From NCBI GenBank assembly GCA_016777585.1, contig JADHRD010000013.1, positions 1-33,689 on the forward strand: a stretch of DNA of 33,689 nt, written 5' to 3'. Position 1 is the stretch's first letter. The number at the start of each line of letters is the position of its first letter. The notes below the pieces were generated by a model. It saw only the letters and a program-made list of their open reading frames with translations, was not told where the DNA came from and did no database searches. The stretch comes from Rhodospirillales bacterium (GTDB lineage: Bacteria; Pseudomonadota; Alphaproteobacteria; Rhodospirillales; UBA2165). The position numbers and the translations under genes were made by a program. This document shows positions 14,512-33,689 of the stretch, one piece after another.

Positions 14512-16395
14512 TTAGTTCGCTTGGCGACGTAAGAAGGCTGGAATATCGAGAATATCATCGTCGACATTTGATGCTTTTATTCGATCCGATGCATTAAGGC
14601 CACCCAACAAACTTTTGTTTTCTGAATTGTTATCAATATTTGAGCTATTGGGATTAGACGCTGTTTCTTCTGAGCCATTCTCTGTAATAGATACATCGAT
14701 ATTATCTTGGAAATTTTCATAAGCCTCATTATCTTTATTTTCCTCAAATCCCTCTTTACTCTCTTGATCCACTAAACCGACTATTTCACTATTATCAACT
14801 TCATCAGACAAATTCACATTATTTGGTTTTTTATGCTCACGAGATAAAAGAAGCGATTTATCATTATTATTGGTAGGCTCATCATTTAATTCATCTCCCA
14901 TTTCCTGATCTTGCTTTTTCTGACTTCTGCCTACACCTGTGACTCTCTCAAATAGACTGAGACCTCCAGTTTTCTTCGATGTGCCCTGAGTTTTTGTATC
15001 CTTATTGGCATTAACCATGTCTGCTGCGGCGAAGGGATCAATATTCTTTTCAGATTGCAATGCACTTGCTGGCTCATCAGGAATAAAAACATCTTTCTTC
15101 AAGTCTGCACTCGACAAAAATGCCGGGATTTCCTCATCCGTCCCACTTGTAACATTATTTGTGGCGATTTGAGGCTCTGCATTGATGATGTCTTCTAATG
15201 TGTTGTCTGAGGGAGATACTGATTGAGAATCAAGCTCCATCTCTTTTTTATTTTCCTCAGCTTCACCTTCTTTTTGGACCTGAATTTCAGAAATAGTCGC
15301 AACAGAATTGTTCTCGATATGCTCTTTTGGCATTTGGCTAATATTAGAGTTTTGTGTTATTTGTTTACTTTCATAACCATTACTAATCTTCCTGATAATT
15401 GGTTCACGTTTTGCCCCAATAGCTGACTCAATTCCGGTAGCAACCACTGAAACTCGGACGCGACCTTCAAGGCCCTCGTCAAATGTAGAACCAAATATAA
15501 TGTTAACATCTCCATCTACCTCATCACGTATACGATTTGCCGCTTCATCAACCTCAAACAGAGTAATATCATTTCCTGCTGTTATATTAATCAACACACC
15601 TTTAGCACCGCTCATAGAGGTATCATCCAATAGGGGATTGGCGATTGCTTGTTCTGCCGCTTCCGTAGCACGGCGCTCACCTTCAGCTTCTCCCGTGCCC
15701 ATCATAGCTTTACCCATTTCACTCATAACGGATTTAATATCGGCGAAATCTAAATTAATTAGACCGGGCATAACCATTAAATCCGTAACCCCACGAACTC
15801 CAGAGTAAAGCACGTCGTCTGCCATTTTAAATGCATCAGAAAAAGTAGTTTTTTCATTCGCAACTCTGAATAAATTTTGATTCGGAATAATCAAGAGAGT
15901 ATCCACATACTGTTGTAACTCTTCTAGTCCAGCCTCAGCCATCTTCATCCTATTCGCGCCTTCAAATTGAAACGGCTTTGTAACTACGCCAACCGTCAAA
16001 ATACCGTGCTCTCTTGCCGCTCGAGCTATCACTGGTGCGGCTCCTGTGCCCGTGCCACCCCCAAGTCCAGCTGTTATAAATACCATATTTGTATCTCGAA
16101 TATGAGAGAGTATCTCTTCGAGTGATTCCTCGGCTGCTGCCTCTCCTATATTTGGATTAGCGCCTGCACCCAATCCCTGGGTCACATTAATACCCATCTG
16201 AATACGGCGTTCAGATTTTGACAAGGACAGAGCCTGAGCATCTGAATTTGCAACAACAAATTCTACTCCTTCTAATCCTGACTGTATCATGTTATTGACT
16301 GCGTTTCCTCCGGCACCACCAACACCGATTACTGTAATTCGGGGCTTCAACTCAGATTTTAAAGCGCCACTGGGTAGTGTAAGATTAATGCTCAT
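14512..16395 (-). CDS. ftsZ: Cell division GTPase FtsZ, with a very long linker
   Basis: Tubulin-like GTPase forming the Z ring. The globular core covers about residues 14-325, with [13 protein letters not shown] at 24-36, the tubulin signature GGGTGTG at 112-118 and the synergy-loop region [11 protein letters not shown]. From about 330 to 612 there is a polar Asn/Ser/Glu/Lys linker containing [11 protein letters not shown], then the C-terminal peptide [11 protein letters not shown] (617-627). An internal EEIPAFL at 421-427 repeats the core of that peptide. I chose the ATG at 16395 because TGGAG lies just upstream and MSINL matches family N-termini; an in-frame ATG at 16407 has no RBS. A perfect TATAAT (16505-16500, minus strand) sits in the ftsA-ftsZ gap without a clear -35, so ftsZ may also have its own promoter. 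Confidence 0.96.
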
Positions 16396-16520
16396 TGTAA
16401 ACTCCATTCTTTATGTTATTCAACAAAATGCCAGGCTTATCCCATTTGTTAGCAATATTTACTCAATCATTCATAATTGAGACTAAAACTTTAATTCAGA
16501 TTATACTTTCAAAAGGTTAC

Positions 16521-25737: not shown

Positions 25738-26415
25738 TTATCTTAATTTAAGCGTTGCAAGCCCAACAATCGCTAAAATTATAGCAATTATCCAAAAACG
25801 AATAACAATAGTAGGCTCTGCCCAACCCTTTTTTTCGAAGTGATGATGGAGCGGAGCCATCGCAAAAATACGTTTGCCAGTTAATTTAAAAGAAATCACT
25901 TGAACGATTACCGATGCTGTTTCCAATACAAAGAGCCCTCCCACAATTGATAATACGAGCTCATGTTTTGTTATTACGGCTATCACTCCTAAAGCACCGC
26001 CAATGGCTAAAGACCCCGTATCTCCCATAAAAACCATGGCTGGAGGCGCATTAAACCATAAGAATCCCAATGCAGCTCCGATCAGTGCAGCACAAAATAC
26101 AGTTAACTCGCCTACTCCCGGCACATAGTTCAGTTGTAAATACTGCGAGAAAATTGAATTACCTACTAAATAAGCTATTATAGCAAAAACGACAGTAGCT
26201 ATTATAACGGGACCAATTGCTAAGCCATCCAAACCATCCGTTAAGTTAACAGCGTTTGACGAACCAACAATAACAAATATAGAAAAAACAGAGAAGAACC
26301 AACCCATATCAATTAATATGTTTTTAAAAAATGGAATGGTTAATGAGGTGGACAGGGGATCTCGAGTGAGATTAACAACAAATAATGTTACAGAAAATGC
26401 TATAATTACCTGCAA
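25738..26415 (-). CDS. mraY: MraY, C-terminal part after an in-frame TGA
   Basis: Continuation of phospho-MurNAc-pentapeptide translocase. Homology resumes directly after the TGA (from 26436, PGRLKLLLQ) in the same frame; the first possible start codon inside this part is a TTG at 26415. It holds most of the active site: [10 protein letters not shown] (194-203 in full-length numbering), Asp269 in [12 protein letters not shown] and H327-H328-H329 in [13 protein letters not shown], plus the remaining membrane spans. Without the N-terminal part it lacks the catalytic Asp117/Asp118 pair and cannot be a working enzyme by itself. Together the two parts form 362 codons, the usual family length. Stop TAA, 20 nt before murD. 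Confidence 0.85.
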
Positions 26416-26436
26416 AAGAAGTTTTAGTCTTCCAGG

Positions 26437-26439
26437 TCA
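26437..26439 (-). other. In-frame TGA, codon 130 of mraY
   Basis: The codon series reads Asp-Gly-TGA-Pro-Gly-Arg-Leu-Lys. Relatives have a hydrophobic residue (often Leu, Val or Phe) here in G-x-S/P-G-R, so one base change (for example TTA to TGA) would explain it. The base after TGA is C, a context known to favour readthrough. Confidence 0.9.
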
Positions 26440-26826
26440 ACCATCTGGTTCCTGAGAGGATACCTTTATATAGTCATCAATAAACCCTATTATACCAAAA
26501 CCAACCGTTAAACCCAACGCTGCCCATATGTAACCATTGGTTAAATCAGCCCACAATAGAGTGGCTACGACCAAAGCCAACAAAATCATAATGCCACCCA
26601 TTGTTGGAGTTCCTACTTTAGAAATTAAATGGCTTTCGGGTCCATCGGAACGAATTGGCTGGCCTTTCTTTTGGTGCAATTTAAGCCAACTAATTATGAA
26701 TGGGCCACAGATAAAACTAACGAGTAGCGCTGTAATCAATGCGCCTCCAGATCTAAAAGTAATATAACGAAAAATATTTAAGGCTGCTAATTGATCGGAA
26801 TATTGTGAAAGTGTATTAAAAAGCAT
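26437..26826 (-). CDS. mraY: MraY, N-terminal part (phospho-MurNAc-pentapeptide translocase)
   Basis: MraY transfers phospho-MurNAc-pentapeptide to undecaprenyl phosphate, giving lipid I at the inner membrane. This part (129 aa) carries the first spans, [28 protein letters not shown] (72-78) and the catalytic D117-D118 in FIDDYIKV. It stops at an in-frame TGA only about a dozen residues later, in a cytoplasmic loop before the next span. I use the ATG at 26826, with AAGGAGAG upstream inside murF; a TTG one codon earlier is also open. Overlaps the murF end by 11 nt. Sequencing error, true nonsense mutation or readthrough are all possible. Confidence 0.85.
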
Positions 26827-28264
26827 CAAGTCTCTCCTTAAACGTATTAATTTTCGGATCTATAACAGCAAGATGGTCTTTGATTGCATTAACAACCTTG
26901 CTCATTGAGGTTGCGGCCGATCCCTTGATTAAAACCAAATCATTGCCGTGAAGAGTGTTGAGTAATGGATCGATAAGTTCTTGAGAAGTTTTACCGACAA
27001 AAACAGATACCGCATCAGGCAGTATTTCACTCATCATTTCCATATTTTTACCGGTAACATAAACCAGATCAATTTTTGCCTCTACTATCTTGGGAGCTAA
27101 CTCTAAATGATATTTTTTAGTATTTTTACCAAGTTCCATCATATCCCCAAGCACCATTATTCGGCGCCCACTTTCTTTTACTACCGCCTTCTTTATTAAA
27201 CTGATAGCGGCTGAAACAGAGGCTGGGCTTGCATTATAACTGTCATCAATTAGCTTTATATTGCCTTTATTCGATGAAAGAATATGCATCTCGCCTCTAC
27301 CTTTTAGGGGCTTAATCTGAGAAAATGAGCTCGCAGCCAATTCTAGGCTAGCTCCAGCATAATTAATAGCGGCGAGAATTACTAAACTATTAAAAGCCCA
27401 GTGTTCGCCGGGAATTGCTACTTCGTAATCAAATTTTTTATTATTGATGCTAGCCGTTATAATGGAATTAGTAGGACTAGTTTTAATTTCTATAAGTCTA
27501 AGGTCAGCATCTTCGTGTATGCCAAAACCAACGACTTTACTAGCTCCTGACTTAAATGCTAATTCAGCAAGAAGGTCAAAATACTTATTATCTCTATTTA
27601 ATATTGCAACTCCATCTGATTTTAGTCCCTGAAATATTTCAGCTTTTGCCATGGCAATCGCCTCAAGAGAAGAGAAGAATTCAATATGTACAGGTTCAAT
27701 ATTTGATATGATTGCGATATCTGGTTTTACCATTTCAGATAATAATTTAATTTCACCAGCATGATTCATACCTAGTTCCAGAATAGCAAATTCTGTTTCG
27801 ATTGGAATTTGAGCTAAAGATAAAGGAACACCGATATGATTATTATAACTATTTGGACTATAAAATGTTCTACCTTGGGCCGTTAATAACTTTCCAATAG
27901 CATCTTTTATACTCGTTTTACCTACACTACCTGTAACGCCAATTATTTTTGCATGACACCTTTTTCTTGCCGCGAGAGCGAGCTTATTAAGCGCTTCATA
28001 TGCATCATTTACAGCTAATACTGGAAGCCCCTCTAAATTTTTACCTTTATCTTCAGAAACTGCCGCAACAGCACCTTTATTAAAAGCATCTAAAATAAAA
28101 TCCTGCCCATCAAAATTATCACCTTTCAGGGGGATAAATAGATCACCAGAGCAAACGGTTCTGCTATCAATTGACACGCCAGTAGCAGTCCAATCAAAAG
28201 GCGACTGCCCATCTAATATTTCTGCTACCTCATTAGATCGCCATAAAACAGGTTCATCGTTCAC
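26816..28264 (-). CDS. murF: UDP-MurNAc-tripeptide--D-Ala-D-Ala ligase MurF
   Basis: Adds the D-Ala-D-Ala dipeptide to complete the pentapeptide precursor. Mur ligase with ATP-binding GSVGKTS (112-118), [24 protein letters not shown] and the C-terminal [17 protein letters not shown] and VLGDMMELG. 482 aa. The start is GTG overlapping the murE stop as GTGA. Its 3' end contains the RBS and start of mraY. Confidence 0.96.
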
Positions 28265-29760: not shown

Positions 29761-31518
29761 CTATCGAGATTTCTTCTGAACTGAAATAAATAAGTCGTCG
29801 CCGAGTTTAAAATCAATTTCTTTGTTTTCTGTTCTTTTCAAACCAAGCAGAGGAGCCATTCTTTTAATTACATTCGCAACCGCAGGGGCAGCTACCCATC
29901 CGCCTGTGGCGTATCCATAAGTTCTTTTTATTCCTTTGGGCTCATCAACCATCAACAGGATAGCATACCGAGGTCTATTCATTGGAAAAGAACCCACAAA
30001 AGACGAGATAATTCGACGTTTTCCATAGCCACCTTGCGGACCTACTTTGTCAGCAGTACCTGTTTTACCGCCGACAAGGTAACCCAAAACATCTGCATTT
30101 TTACCTGTACCGTAGCGAACAACCACCCGCATAAGGTCTCTCATCTTTTTTGAAGTATTATCAGATATAATTTTTAGGCCTCTTACCTCCTCACCACGAG
30201 AGATTTTGCGGATACGTGGTTTAAATAAAGTTCCCCCATTTACTAAAGCTGCAACGCCTGAAATTAGTTGAATTGGACTCACAGAAATACCGTGTCCATA
30301 TGACATTGTAACAGTATTAATTTCTCGCCATCCTGCAACTTTTGGATATCCTATTTCTGGCAGTTCAAGTTGTGCCGGGGTAAGCAAACCAAAACGTCTC
30401 AAATAATTTTTCTGCGTTTTGGTACCAATGTCTTGAGCAATTTTAGCTGTACCTATATTTGAAGAAAATGCTATTATTTCTGGTACTGATAACCATCTAT
30501 TTTCTGCGTGATAATCAGATATTTTATGCCTGGAAACCTTAATTGGCTTGGTCGCATCATACCGATTCTGTAATTTAATAGTTCCAGAGTCTAAGGCCAT
30601 TGCAACTGTAAACAGCTTAAAAGTCGAGCCCATCTCATAGACACCCTTTGTTGCTCTATTGAAGCCAGCAATGCCACTTGCAGTTATAGGCTTGTTAGGA
30701 TTAAAGTCAGGTAGAGAGGTCATCGCCCTGACCTCACCATTTGTGACATCCATAATGATACCAGCTGCACCAATAGCCTTAAACTCATTCATGGCCTTCA
30801 ATAACTCTTCGCGCAGAATTGACTGCAGCCTGACGTCAAGGGACAACACTACTGGTATATCGGATTTGAAAAGGCTTTTATCAAAATAACCTTCCACCCC
30901 TGATAATCCTCGGCCATCGATATCTGTCAATCCCAAAACATGGGAAATAGTCTGGCCATGAGGATACACCCTTCTCTCAGTGCGTTGAAACTTAAGGCCA
31001 GGAATACCCAATGTATTTACTAAGAATTGTGCATTGGGTGTCAAGTTTCTCTCTAACCAAACGAAGGATTTATTTGATGCCAATTTTTTTTCAATCTTAG
31101 CCTGGTCCAGAGTTGGGAAGATCTTGCTCAGTTTCTCAGCAGCCAAAGTTGCATCAAATACTTGACGGGGATTAGCATATAATGAGGCTGTTGGCAGGCT
31201 AGTAGCTAGCAAAATACCATTCCTGTCTTTAATATTAGCCCGAGACACTCTCTTATTTAAGTTTGGTATTATTTTATGATACCTCGACTCTCTGACGCCT
31301 TCATCAAAGATTGCCAATTCAACTAAGCGGCCAGCTAAAACAGCAAAAGCCATGGTAAATAAAGCTCCGGCGACTAAAAGCCGATTTCGCCCTGTTTCCA
31401 ATGCTAAGCGGCGCGCACCATCAAATTTTATATGAATAGGAGACTGACTGTTCTTTTTTAAATATCCATTTGCTTTCGCATTTGGTCGGAATGGATGCTG
31501 GATTCTCTCGAATATCAT
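29761..31518 (-). CDS. ftsI: Septal peptidoglycan transpeptidase FtsI (PBP3)
   Basis: Class B penicillin-binding protein that cross-links septal peptidoglycan with FtsW. A cytoplasmic tail is followed by one span (about 46-70), a pedestal domain, and the transpeptidase domain with active-site Ser298 in STFK (298-301), SSN (352-354) and KTG (485-487). 585 aa, normal. ATG overlapping the ftsL stop (ATGA). Stop TAG. Confidence 0.97.
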   Translation of the reverse strand: MIFERIQHPFRPNAKANGYLKKNSQSPIHIKFDGARRLALETGRNRLLVAGALFTMAFAVLAGRLVELAIFDEGVRESRYHKIIPNLNKRVSRANIKDRNGILLATSLPTASLYANPRQVFDATLAAEKLSKIFPTLDQAKIEKKLASNKSFVWLERNLTPNAQFLVNTLGIPGLKFQRTERRVYPHGQTISHVLGLTDIDGRGLSGVEGYFDKSLFKSDIPVVLSLDVRLQSILREELLKAMNEFKAIGAAGIIMDVTNGEVRAMTSLPDFNPNKPITASGIAGFNRATKGVYEMGSTFKLFTVAMALDSGTIKLQNRYDATKPIKVSRHKISDYHAENRWLSVPEIIAFSSNIGTAKIAQDIGTKTQKNYLRRFGLLTPAQLELPEIGYPKVAGWREINTVTMSYGHGISVSPIQLISGVAALVNGGTLFKPRIRKISRGEEVRGLKIISDNTSKKMRDLMRVVVRYGTGKNADVLGYLVGGKTGTADKVGPQGGYGKRRIISSFVGSFPMNRPRYAILLMVDEPKGIKRTYGYATGGWVAAPAVANVIKRMAPLLGLKRTENKEIDFKLGDDLFISVQKKSR

Positions 31519-31880
31519 TGCTCAAATCCTTCTTGATTTGGAGCTACTTTTATATTGCCAACTTTTATATTCCAATTTTTTTGTTCTTTTTTATTTGGTT
31601 CACTACTAGGGATATTAATCAGATCATCAATAGATTTAATTCTATCGGGATTGGTCGGGTTCATTTGCAAATAACGCGAAGCCAGATCTTTAATTCTCGA
31701 TACATTATTTAAATGGCTCCATTCCGCATTCAAGACATGTATTCCCTCTTCATGATCTACTATTGAACTATTTAGATATGAAATTCTATCTTCTAAATTT
31801 GCTACCTCATATTTAAGATAAAAAAGCGCTAAACTCATAAAAGCCGCCACAAAAAGTGTGAGAATCGTCGTTTGACGCAT
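31515..31880 (-). CDS. ftsL: Cell division protein FtsL
   Basis: Small bitopic divisome protein. 121 aa with a membrane span at about 5-24 (ILTLFVAAFMSLALFYL) followed by a periplasmic coiled coil (VANLEDRISYLNSSIVDHEE) and the motif RIKDLASRYLQMNPTNPDRI, which resembles the alphaproteobacterial FtsL C-terminal segment. FtsL is poorly conserved, so the call relies on topology and position between rsmH and ftsI. ATG start with AAGGGAGAGGG upstream; stop TGA. Confidence 0.88.
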   Translation of the reverse strand: MRQTTILTLFVAAFMSLALFYLKYEVANLEDRISYLNSSIVDHEEGIHVLNAEWSHLNNVSRIKDLASRYLQMNPTNPDRIKSIDDLINIPSSEPNKKEQKNWNIKVGNIKVAPNQEGFEQ

Positions 31881-31903
31881 TTCCGCCCTCTCCCTTAAAC
31901 TGT

Positions 31904-32851
31904 CTAAAGCAAAACCACTGGTGCCGTTGTCCTCTCGGCCACTCGCAATCGAGCGGACCTTGATCTTGGATTCTTTTCGACTTCCAATACTTCTGGTTTA
32001 ATCACATGCTTTGTAATAAGACTAAAACTAGGTGCAATATTTGGTTCTGGGTTTTGTGGTAAGTGTCTTGATACTCCAATATTTTTACCACTATTTTTAT
32101 AAAGAAATCTTTTTACTCTTTTATCTTCGAGAGAATGAAAAGATACTACTGCTAGCCGCCCCCTAGGTGCTAAAATCCTCTCAGCTGCAATTAGACCTTT
32201 ATCGAGTGCCTCTAATTCATTATTTACTTTAATTCTAAGGGCCATAAAAGTTTTAGTCGCTGGATTATTGCCATTCCGAGGCCATTTTACATTCGCATGA
32301 ATTATTTTAACCAACTCTCCTGTCGATACTATTGGTTTTAATTCACGAGCTTTCATTATACCTCTCGCTATCTTTCGAGAGTATTTCTCTTCTCCAAATT
32401 GATAAATAACATTAGCTATTTCTTCTTCTGCCGCATTATTAATAAATTCTGCAGCTGTAAAACCTTGATTACTCATTCGCATATCAAGTGGTCCGTCAAA
32501 TCTGAAAGAAAAACCGCGAACCGGGTCATCAATTTGTGGAGTGGATATGCCAAGATCCAATGTTACCCCATCAATATTTCCAATAGATTGTTTTGTTATC
32601 AAACTGGCCATATCGCCAAAGCAACCTTTTAACATTATCAGTCGACCCTGATACTTTTTGCTAAGTTCAATTCCAAAATCAATTGCTATTGGATCCTGAT
32701 CAATGCCAAAAACTTTAGTTAAGGGTTTTTCCAGAATAGCTTTTGTATATCCCCCCCGACCAAAAGTTCCATCAACATAAACTCCACCCTTTTTGAGATT
32801 TAAGCCAGTAATAACTTCTTTTCGCAATACGGGCTCATGAGTTATAGGCAA
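31904..32851 (-). CDS. rsmH: 16S rRNA (cytosine(1402)-N4)-methyltransferase RsmH
   Basis: Methylates N4 of C1402 in the ribosomal P site (formerly MraW). Family motifs: HEPVLRKEVI at the start, SAM-binding YVDGTFGRGGYT, DLGISTPQIDDPVRGFSFR with DGPLDMRM, KTFMALRIKVNNELEAL, and VVSFHSLEDKRVKRF. 315 aa. The start is TTG with TAGGAG 8-9 nt upstream; a close ATG is out of frame. Confidence 0.96.
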   Translation of the reverse strand: MPITHEPVLRKEVITGLNLKKGGVYVDGTFGRGGYTKAILEKPLTKVFGIDQDPIAIDFGIELSKKYQGRLIMLKGCFGDMASLITKQSIGNIDGVTLDLGISTPQIDDPVRGFSFRFDGPLDMRMSNQGFTAAEFINNAAEEEIANVIYQFGEEKYSRKIARGIMKARELKPIVSTGELVKIIHANVKWPRNGNNPATKTFMALRIKVNNELEALDKGLIAAERILAPRGRLAVVSFHSLEDKRVKRFLYKNSGKNIGVSRHLPQNPEPNIAPSFSLITKHVIKPEVLEVEKNPRSRSARLRVAERTTAPVVLL

Positions 32852-32871
32852 ATCTAATACTCCTATTCATG

Positions 32872-33321
32872 TTAATATTTTTTAATATTTAAAATACACG
32901 TGTTTATGCTAGTGCATCTAAAATTAGCTAAATTACGAGCTAAAAGTATGCATAATCTCACAACCTTATGAATATTATCCTCAGCAATAATTAATTCTCG
33001 TTTTTTAATGGTCGAATTAGACAATAGTTGCCTGAGGAATTGCAATAGATTCTGAATAAAGATCTTAGCGAAGTTATTTTTTTTGCAAAAAACAATGTTA
33101 AAATTATTATTAATACTAACTGACTGCAGTGTAGATTGCTCACCACAATCTTTAGTAGAGCTTTTAAAAAAATATCTTGGAACATGATATATTGAAGAAA
33201 TTATTGCAGTCTTTATTAGCCGAGTGTCAATCATACAGATTGAAGTATATAAGAGCCAAGATTCTAATACTCTTCCCGTAATATCCATCATTTTAAAACG
33301 TCTAAATATTAACGTGGCCAT
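32872..33321 (-). CDS. Highly diverged or decaying MraZ candidate
   Basis: A 149-aa ORF in the mraZ position just upstream of rsmH, with ATG and GAGG about 9 nt before it. It is not plainly recognisable, but it is colinear with MraZ as I remember the family: M-A at the start, D13-x-x-G-R-V18 (first AbrB-like loop), C59-G60, L65..S69-I70-N71-N72 where MraZ has L..SID(D/N), N82-N83-F84-A85 for DD(L/F)A, and the right total length. The conserved proline after GRV and the second D-G-x-G-R-I-x-L-P loop (here about 104-114, IKKRELIIAE) are lost. MraZ is the DNA-binding transcriptional regulator of its own dcw operon. Alternatives: a pseudogene under decay, or a chance ORF in AT-rich leader DNA. Apart from this ORF nothing is seen in 32852-33321. 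Confidence 0.45.
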   Translation of the reverse strand: MATLIFRRFKMMDITGRVLESWLLYTSICMIDTRLIKTAIISSIYHVPRYFFKSSTKDCGEQSTLQSVSINNNFNIVFCKKNNFAKIFIQNLLQFLRQLLSNSTIKKRELIIAEDNIHKVVRLCILLARNLANFRCTSINTCILNIKKY

Positions 33322-33400
33322 TTTGTAGCCTCAATACGTCTCACATTAACCGCTAACTTCGTAACAAAAAATTAAAGTTAAGAAAGAAGCCAGAAAATAT

Positions 33401-33430
33401 TTAATAACAATCCAAATCCTGTTCAATCAA
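33401..33430 (-). promoter_or_regulatory. Candidate promoter of the dcw cluster
   Basis: On the minus strand, TTGATT (33430-33425), a 17- or 18-nt spacer and TTATTA/TATTAA (33407-33401) lie about 80 nt upstream of the mraZ candidate. The rest of 33322-33593, the largest clear intergenic region, is AT-rich with two short palindromes and no MraZ-type TGGG repeats that I can see. AT-richness makes chance matches likely. Confidence 0.3.
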
Positions 33431-33442
33431 CACAGAAATCCG

Positions 33443-33460
33443 AGAATAAATAATTATTCT
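33443..33460. repeat. Short perfect palindromic hairpin in the dcw leader
   Basis: AGAATAA, a 4-nt loop and TTATTCT form a perfect 7-bp stem. A smaller one, CCTATAAATAGG, lies at 33502-33513. Neither is GC-rich or followed by a T-tract, so they are weak as terminators for the upstream epimerase gene; an operator is equally possible. Confidence 0.35.
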
Positions 33461-33593
33461 GGGCGTATCATAGGGTTAAACAAGCACCATATTTTATCAT
33501 GCCTATAAATAGGTTAATAAAGCCTTTCCATAGCTAATAGTTTAATCAAAAATTATTATTAAGAAATCTTTGTGAAACTTAAATAAATATTAG

Positions 33594-33689
33594 CTAAATA
33601 TTATTCGCGAAATAAGAGACTGTCTTCTCTAAACCATCTTTTAGTTTCGTAGTAGGATTCCAATCGAGTATACTATTAGCTAAATTGAT
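33594..33689 (-). CDS. NAD-dependent epimerase/dehydratase family protein, C-terminus only
   Basis: The last 31 codons of a gene entering from the right edge, ending in TAG. The reading ILDWNPTTKLKDGLEKTVSYF matches the terminal helix of extended short-chain dehydrogenase sugar-nucleotide epimerases and decarboxylases (pattern LGW-x-P-x-x-x-L-x-x-G-L-x-x-T-x-x-Y/W-F). Substrate cannot be told from this piece; UDP-glucuronate decarboxylase or UDP-glucose epimerase types are candidates. It is upstream of the dcw cluster on the same strand, 272 nt from the mraZ candidate. Confidence 0.7.
   Translation of the reverse strand: MNLANSILDWNPTTKLKDGLEKTVSYFANNI

Follow-up and report, generated by a model that had tools for sequence, protein, structure and literature searches.

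A probable remnant of mraZ with an open reading frame and an eroded operator before rsmH in two related marine alphaproteobacteria

MraZ boxes, the repeats bound by MraZ, are known from E. coli, Burkholderia and Mycoplasma according to the available parts of PMC7761207 and PMC8475190, and those of Burkholderia are described there as 7-nt repeats with 3-nt spacers, giving a period of 10 (PMC7761207). Loss of mraZ is already known as well. In the part of PMC9395523 available to us, natural loss of mraZ in the multicellular longitudinally dividing Neisseriaceae goes with lower expression of the dcw cluster, whereas in the available part of PMC8475190 loss of mraZ in Mycoplasma genitalium raises expression of the cluster; since these two losses act oppositely, the direction of any expression effect in the species studied here is not inferable from them. 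Among the matches listed in our literature searches (mraZ with dcw, pseudogene or absence in Alphaproteobacteria, MraZ repeats, TMED23, and Rho polarity), no report of the mraZ remnant described here was found. What we add is this remnant, with visible loss of the operator and an unexplained open frame.

The window, that is, the whole stretch of 33,689 nucleotides analysed, comprises an entire contig, one of the 143 that make up an alphaproteobacterial genome (2.37 Mb, 85% complete). We refer to the sequence of its species as W, and the nearest relative among the genomes compared is Rhodospirillaceae bacterium TMED23 (NHCC01000019.1). The two are related marine bacteria forming a sister pair, and each is represented by an incomplete MAG (85% and about 86%, respectively). 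For 28 of the 29 ORFs taken as genes, TMED23 has a collinear counterpart with 78-98% amino-acid identity, and the only one without is the ORF at the mraZ position. A sequence-only reading of this DNA had described there a barely recognisable, decayed-looking MraZ, and the ORF is found in that place, on that strand and with that length, encoding 149 aa from an ATG start with a GAGG 5' of it at a 7-nt spacer, in agreement with the ribosome-binding site proposed earlier; its end lies 20 nt from rsmH. The landmarks that reading had listed (D13, GRV16-18, CG59-60, SINN69-72 and NNFA82-85) are all at the positions it gave. The features of the locus are the following.

31904..32851, minus strand: rsmH (mraW), intact, with a TTG start, the first conserved gene of the dcw cluster (Pfam and NCBIfam, comparison with TMED23)
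32860..32864, minus strand: AGGAG, likely the ribosome-binding site of rsmH's own (position before the TTG start)
32872..33321, minus strand: probable mraZ remnant, a 149-codon open frame, most likely mraZ-derived, without amino-acid constraint (ORF, HMM against shuffles, alignment, dN/dS)
33029..33043 (approximate), minus strand: junction of an in-frame deletion of about 10 residues comprising the second DNA-binding loop, common to TMED23 (three MAFFT modes; exact edges uncertain)
33329..33332, minus strand: ribosome-binding site (GAGG) for the former mraZ start (GAGGCTACnAAATGGC is present in TMED23 too)
33455..33519 (edges approximate), minus strand: stretch that is the MraZ operator in relatives (CCCA every 10 bp), at background level in W (box scoring)
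33506..33532, minus strand: 27-bp block identical in W and TMED23, containing TTTATTAACC (leader alignment)

The ORF has no match to MraZ models (Pfam PF02381, NCBIfam) at E up to 10, and no MraZ over cut-off was found elsewhere in its own genome. Among 41 genomes (its own and 40 relatives), PF02381 is over cut-off in 35, including all seven other members of the genus. The six without it are the window's genome (G000), TMED23 (G005), G013, G024, G029 and G038; two of these, G029 and G038, also lack an RsmH match, and the G013 contig starts within rsmH. mraZ precedes rsmH in all 28 relatives whose rsmH locus was read. When scored against an HMM of the seven MraZ proteins of the genus, the W ORF reached 6.9 bits, a score attained by 2 residue shuffles and no dinucleotide shuffle out of 5000 of each kind. 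With a wider HMM built from 28 relatives, in which rows L043, L045 and L046 carry extra N-terminal residues, its score was not significant, being reached by 954 and 278 of 5000 residue and dinucleotide shuffles, respectively. The resemblance to MraZ is thus visible against close kin only. The TMED23 ORF scored mostly above shuffles with the two HMMs (67 and 9 of 5000 reached its score), and hhalign of the W-TMED23 pair against the genus MraZ gave a weak match with a probability of 4%. The non-significant wider score and the low hhalign probability would both suit an unrelated ORF that took over the place of mraZ. However, W is collinear with the genus MraZ from residue 1, the old mraZ start context is preserved in both species, and W and TMED23 preserve different MraZ residues in the same register, W retaining more of the N-terminus and TMED23 more of the YxxxSFK..FIQ stretch; we therefore consider such a replacement very improbable. 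Since the genus HMM score exceeds those of shuffles, both sequences are in broad register with MraZ under three MAFFT modes, and the loss of a loop is common to the two, the ORF most likely descends from mraZ.

The loop loss concerns the tandem AbrB-like DxxGRVxxP motifs present in relatives. In W, the first motif is partial (D..GRV, without proline), reading GRVLESWLL against GRVSVPKPF in several relatives, and the second (DTEGRVxxP) has been deleted, leaving a gap of about 10 residues in all three MAFFT modes that is also found in TMED23. The missing first-loop prolines and the missing second DNA-binding loop had both been pointed out in the sequence-only reading. In a tree of RsmH, W and TMED23 are grouped (100/100) within the rows of the genus, though on a long stem and with an unusual composition in both. 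As this tree joins the two with full support, a single loss on their common stem would be the simplest account. A locus in another family of the same order, L060 (G024:C51:2500-5400), has no recognisable mraZ ahead of its rsmH, which is probably an independent loss and a separate case. Searches with the DNA pattern and with RsmH found no further sequences of this locus in viral contigs.

The W and TMED23 remnants are homologous DNA, since their alignment scored 359, whereas the best of 300 shuffles scored 113. Their identity is flat over codon positions 1, 2 and 3 (60/114, 59/115 and 67/115). At fourfold sites of rsmH, ftsL and part of ftsI, the two species are identical at 147 of 250, with codon positions 1 and 2 of these genes being 86-96% identical; the divergence of the ORF resembles that of the fourfold sites, so that all its codon positions change at the neutral rate, as in a pseudogene. 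We estimated dN/dS using a codon model anchored on five neighbouring genes; a pairwise model with free branch length was saturated and unstable. At the neighbour-fitted rate, dN/dS of the ORF was 1.7, a value of 1.0 being worse by 5.5-7.7 lnL units, and it fell to 1.0-1.4 if the neutral rate was set 30-60% above the fit (1 at 60%), while under all settings (three assumed rate scales) 0.5 fitted worse by 9-38 lnL units and was rejected. A coarser fit gave 1.4-2 over three alignments, against 0.10-0.17 for the five neighbouring genes. Overall, dN/dS lies at 1-2, varying with alignment and rate scale, and the comparison with relatives that had been proposed as a check on the decay of this ORF gives no sign of purifying selection. 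The best-fit value of 1.7 is unexpected for a strictly neutral remnant unless the synonymous sites of the neighbours are slowed; because codon usage may slow synonymous change in those genes, we read the change in the ORF as probably neutral, with diversifying change being possible. In any case, the amino acids of the ORF are not conserved between the sister species. Moreover, GC at codon position 1 is 0.275 in the W ORF against 0.446-0.522 in 13 other genes measured, and its codon-position GC and residue make-up are those of unconstrained AT-rich DNA. The structure prediction suggested in the sequence-only reading gave an AlphaFold2 model with a mean pLDDT of 41.7 for the W ORF, from a shallow alignment of 7 rows whose N-terminus was poorly aligned, against 77.9 for an intact MraZ (5 rows); a model of such low confidence does not disprove the double swapped-hairpin fold.

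In the relatives, the putative operator is a row of CCCA boxes on the gene strand (TGGG on the opposite strand) every 10 bp. This array before mraZ is comparable in period to the Burkholderia boxes as described in the available part of PMC7761207, but differs from the MraZ boxes known from the accessible text of that source and of PMC8475190 in that, in the order to which W belongs, the gene-strand sequence of the boxes is CCCA, and in W they are gone. Judging from the position of the arrays and from known MraZ boxes, MraZ probably binds them. Three or more CCCA boxes at exactly 10 bp occur in 23 of the 27 relatives with enough upstream sequence, and the remaining four contain two. When six boxes were scored softly, all 27 relatives reached 18-23 of 24, and W and TMED23 both reached 11; 500 shuffles gave a mean of 9.5 and a maximum of 14, placing the W score within the shuffle range. 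The operator repeats of the TGGG type had earlier been thought absent, and TGGG indeed occurs 0 times in the W leader examined, with the refinement that the boxes of relatives read CCCA on the gene strand. A gene-strand TGGG array was set aside as a candidate, with one such repeat in TMED23 and none in W, the operator of relatives being on the other strand. In a genome-wide search, three exact CCCA boxes were found nowhere in the available parts of the W and TMED23 genomes; 30 of the 41 genomes have a match, and since at least five genomes bearing MraZ (G003, G014, G026, G034 and G036) are also without the exact triple, this search alone proves little. No new repeat array was noticed in the course of the other analyses.

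A 27-bp block of the leader is unchanged between W and TMED23 despite the decay of the operator and of mraZ. It holds TTTATTAACC, at -196 in W and -195 in TMED23, a version of which stands directly before or opens the operator in many relatives, and TTAACC, which we take to resemble a CtrA half-site, is found upstream in 17 of the 27. The block is perhaps a promoter or a CtrA-type site. A promoter scan returned 6 sites against 5.2 expected by shuffle, and the same scan found no terminator-like site. The folding of the leader RNA is ordinary (z -1.09). We also considered a leader RNA like UpsM, as presented in the available part of PMC5089854, and searched 31500-33689 with Rfam, which gave four matches far below gathering scores to families of no bearing (snoRNAs, a U1A element and an lncRNA); we therefore claim no such RNA.

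The layout at the 3' end of the ORF has changed too. ATGA overlaps, in which an ATG in frame with rsmH shares bases with the mraZ stop, are found in all seven genus relatives (L024-L030) and are gone in W and TMED23, where rsmH starts at a TTG preceded by AGGAG or TAGGG. Such an overlap is the usual layout of coupled translation. The ancestor would thus have coupled the translation of mraZ and rsmH through ATGA, while rsmH would now depend on a ribosome-binding site of its own.

Compared with MraZ (PF02381) of the seven other genus members, then, the remnant is alike in its place before rsmH, its start context, its near-normal length, the residual first motif and its frame, but it is without a profile match, the second DNA-binding loop, purifying selection, the operator array and the ATGA overlap. 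Protein constraint, operator and overlap have been lost. All these observations make it quite probable that the ORF is a remnant of mraZ and that no working MraZ has been encoded since before W and TMED23 separated, with protein and operator lost together. On this reconstruction, an in-frame deletion would have removed the second DNA-binding loop, the constraint on amino acids would have vanished, and the operator would have eroded to background, with the start codon and its ribosome-binding site, the TTTATTAACC-bearing leader block and the remainder of the dcw cluster being retained. Since operator, protein constraint and second loop are lost, transcription of the dcw cluster would presumably now run without MraZ control. 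The earlier suggestion of a repressor in the course of loss is therefore supported as to the loss, but not as to its being under way, since the loss looks finished: there is no constraint, the loop is deleted, the operator is gone and no confident fold is predicted.

The other suggestion made at that time, a repressor with altered DNA specificity, finds no support, because a repressor of new specificity should be under purifying selection, which is absent here. A living, strongly diverged MraZ that still regulates the dcw cluster could account for the open frame with its start, ribosome-binding site and near-normal length, for the D13 and GRV of the first motif, and for the open frame of TMED23. 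On the other hand, it is hard to reconcile with a dN/dS of about 1 or more, the deleted second loop, the low pLDDT and the lost operator (although the missing exact CCCA triple is shared with at least five genomes that have MraZ), and we regard it as extremely unlikely. With mraZ loss in the Neisseriaceae, the remnant shares, as far as the available part of PMC9395523 goes, its restriction to a clade and an otherwise kept dcw cluster; unlike that case, where the same part of the source reports mraZ as absent, W has an in-frame remnant and a visible operator loss.

What this loss explains least well is the open frames. The 149 codons of the mraZ frame of W include no stop; dinucleotide shuffles predict 11.8, and none of 4000 is open. 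The TMED23 frame in the same register has 0 stops in 115 codons, with 9.0 expected and 1 of 4000 shuffles open. The other two forward frames have 13 and 23 stops in W and 10 and 17 in TMED23. The sequence-only reading had named a missing profile match together with an ORF unconserved in sister genomes as the outcome against it, and this is what we find for the protein; the frame, by contrast, is open in TMED23 in the same register. Since W was picked for being open, the fair test is TMED23 given W. Simulated neutral change from W to TMED23 over 97 aligned codons at 55-58% identity left the frame free of stops in 0.2-0.4% of runs, the reverse simulation at the same identity in 0.09-0.2%, and simulation at an assumed identity of 70% in at most 1.7%. 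When decay was simulated from an intact MraZ at the split (1500 runs), a W-like open frame arose in 0.33%, a TMED23-like one in 0.87% and both together in 0 of 1500. Since stop-free frames are so rare in shuffles and simulations, plain decay alone fits them poorly.

Even so, luck may have kept both frames of a plain non-coding pseudogene open, a sub-case of the loss of MraZ that we hold to be a serious possibility, if somewhat short of an even chance. It agrees with the neutral rate and the non-coding composition, and low stop counts do occur without a gene, as one antisense frame of W contains only 3 stops in 148 codons. If constraint lasted until well after the split, both frames were open in 2.2% of simulated runs. 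Furthermore, the old start of TMED23, downstream of which a net 91 nt are missing, runs into a stop at codon 6; the open frame of TMED23 therefore requires a different ATG, which lies a short way upstream and is preceded by GAGGG. A 1-nt gap also shifts the last codons of the frame. The stops or frameshifts that accumulate in pseudogenes are thus missing from the body of the frame (0 stops in 96 aligned TMED23 codons), yet the 91-nt net deletion and the 1-nt gap are present at its ends. Against luck stand the simulated frequencies just given, above all the absence of any doubly open outcome among the 1500 runs that began with an intact MraZ at the split.

A more tentative idea, based on two genomes, is that selection for translation itself keeps the frame open while the amino acids drift. 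Ribosomes crossing the stretch would feed rsmH or shield the message from Rho, which would explain open frames without conserved amino acids. We think this possible, on the unlikely side. Doubtful in our view is a third idea, in which an mraZ-derived protein is evolving fast or has been repurposed, its frame being kept and its residues changing freely or under diversifying selection. The absence of stops from both frames, the net in-frame indel within the in-register stretch and the preference for a dN/dS of 1.7 over 1.0 at the neighbour-fitted rate speak in its favour; however, the residue make-up and codon-position GC like those of unconstrained AT-rich DNA, a protein alignment score of 77 in the mraZ frame against 72 in frame +1, and a dN/dS that equals 1 once the neutral rate is raised by 60% do not. 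If the frames are selected, the operon would keep a gene for translation alone, with an ORF conserved only in being open and a function invisible to annotation based on conservation. A remnant that has lost its operator but still has its start context and an open frame may in turn make it possible to trace, step by step, how a conserved regulator disappears from its operon.

Two other genes of the window have unusual features. mraY (25738-26829, minus strand) has an in-frame TGA at 26437-26439 (PDG*PGRLK), where TMED23 has TTA. As both halves are otherwise 92-93% identical to TMED23, the TGA is likely either an error in the sequence or a nonsense mutation that arose very recently. We rejected a change of the genetic code, given the TTA in TMED23 and the TGA that ends other genes of the window. 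In FtsZ (14512-16407, minus strand; 631 aa), the Tubulin and FtsZ_C matches end at residue 327, which leaves a C-terminal tail of about 300 residues.
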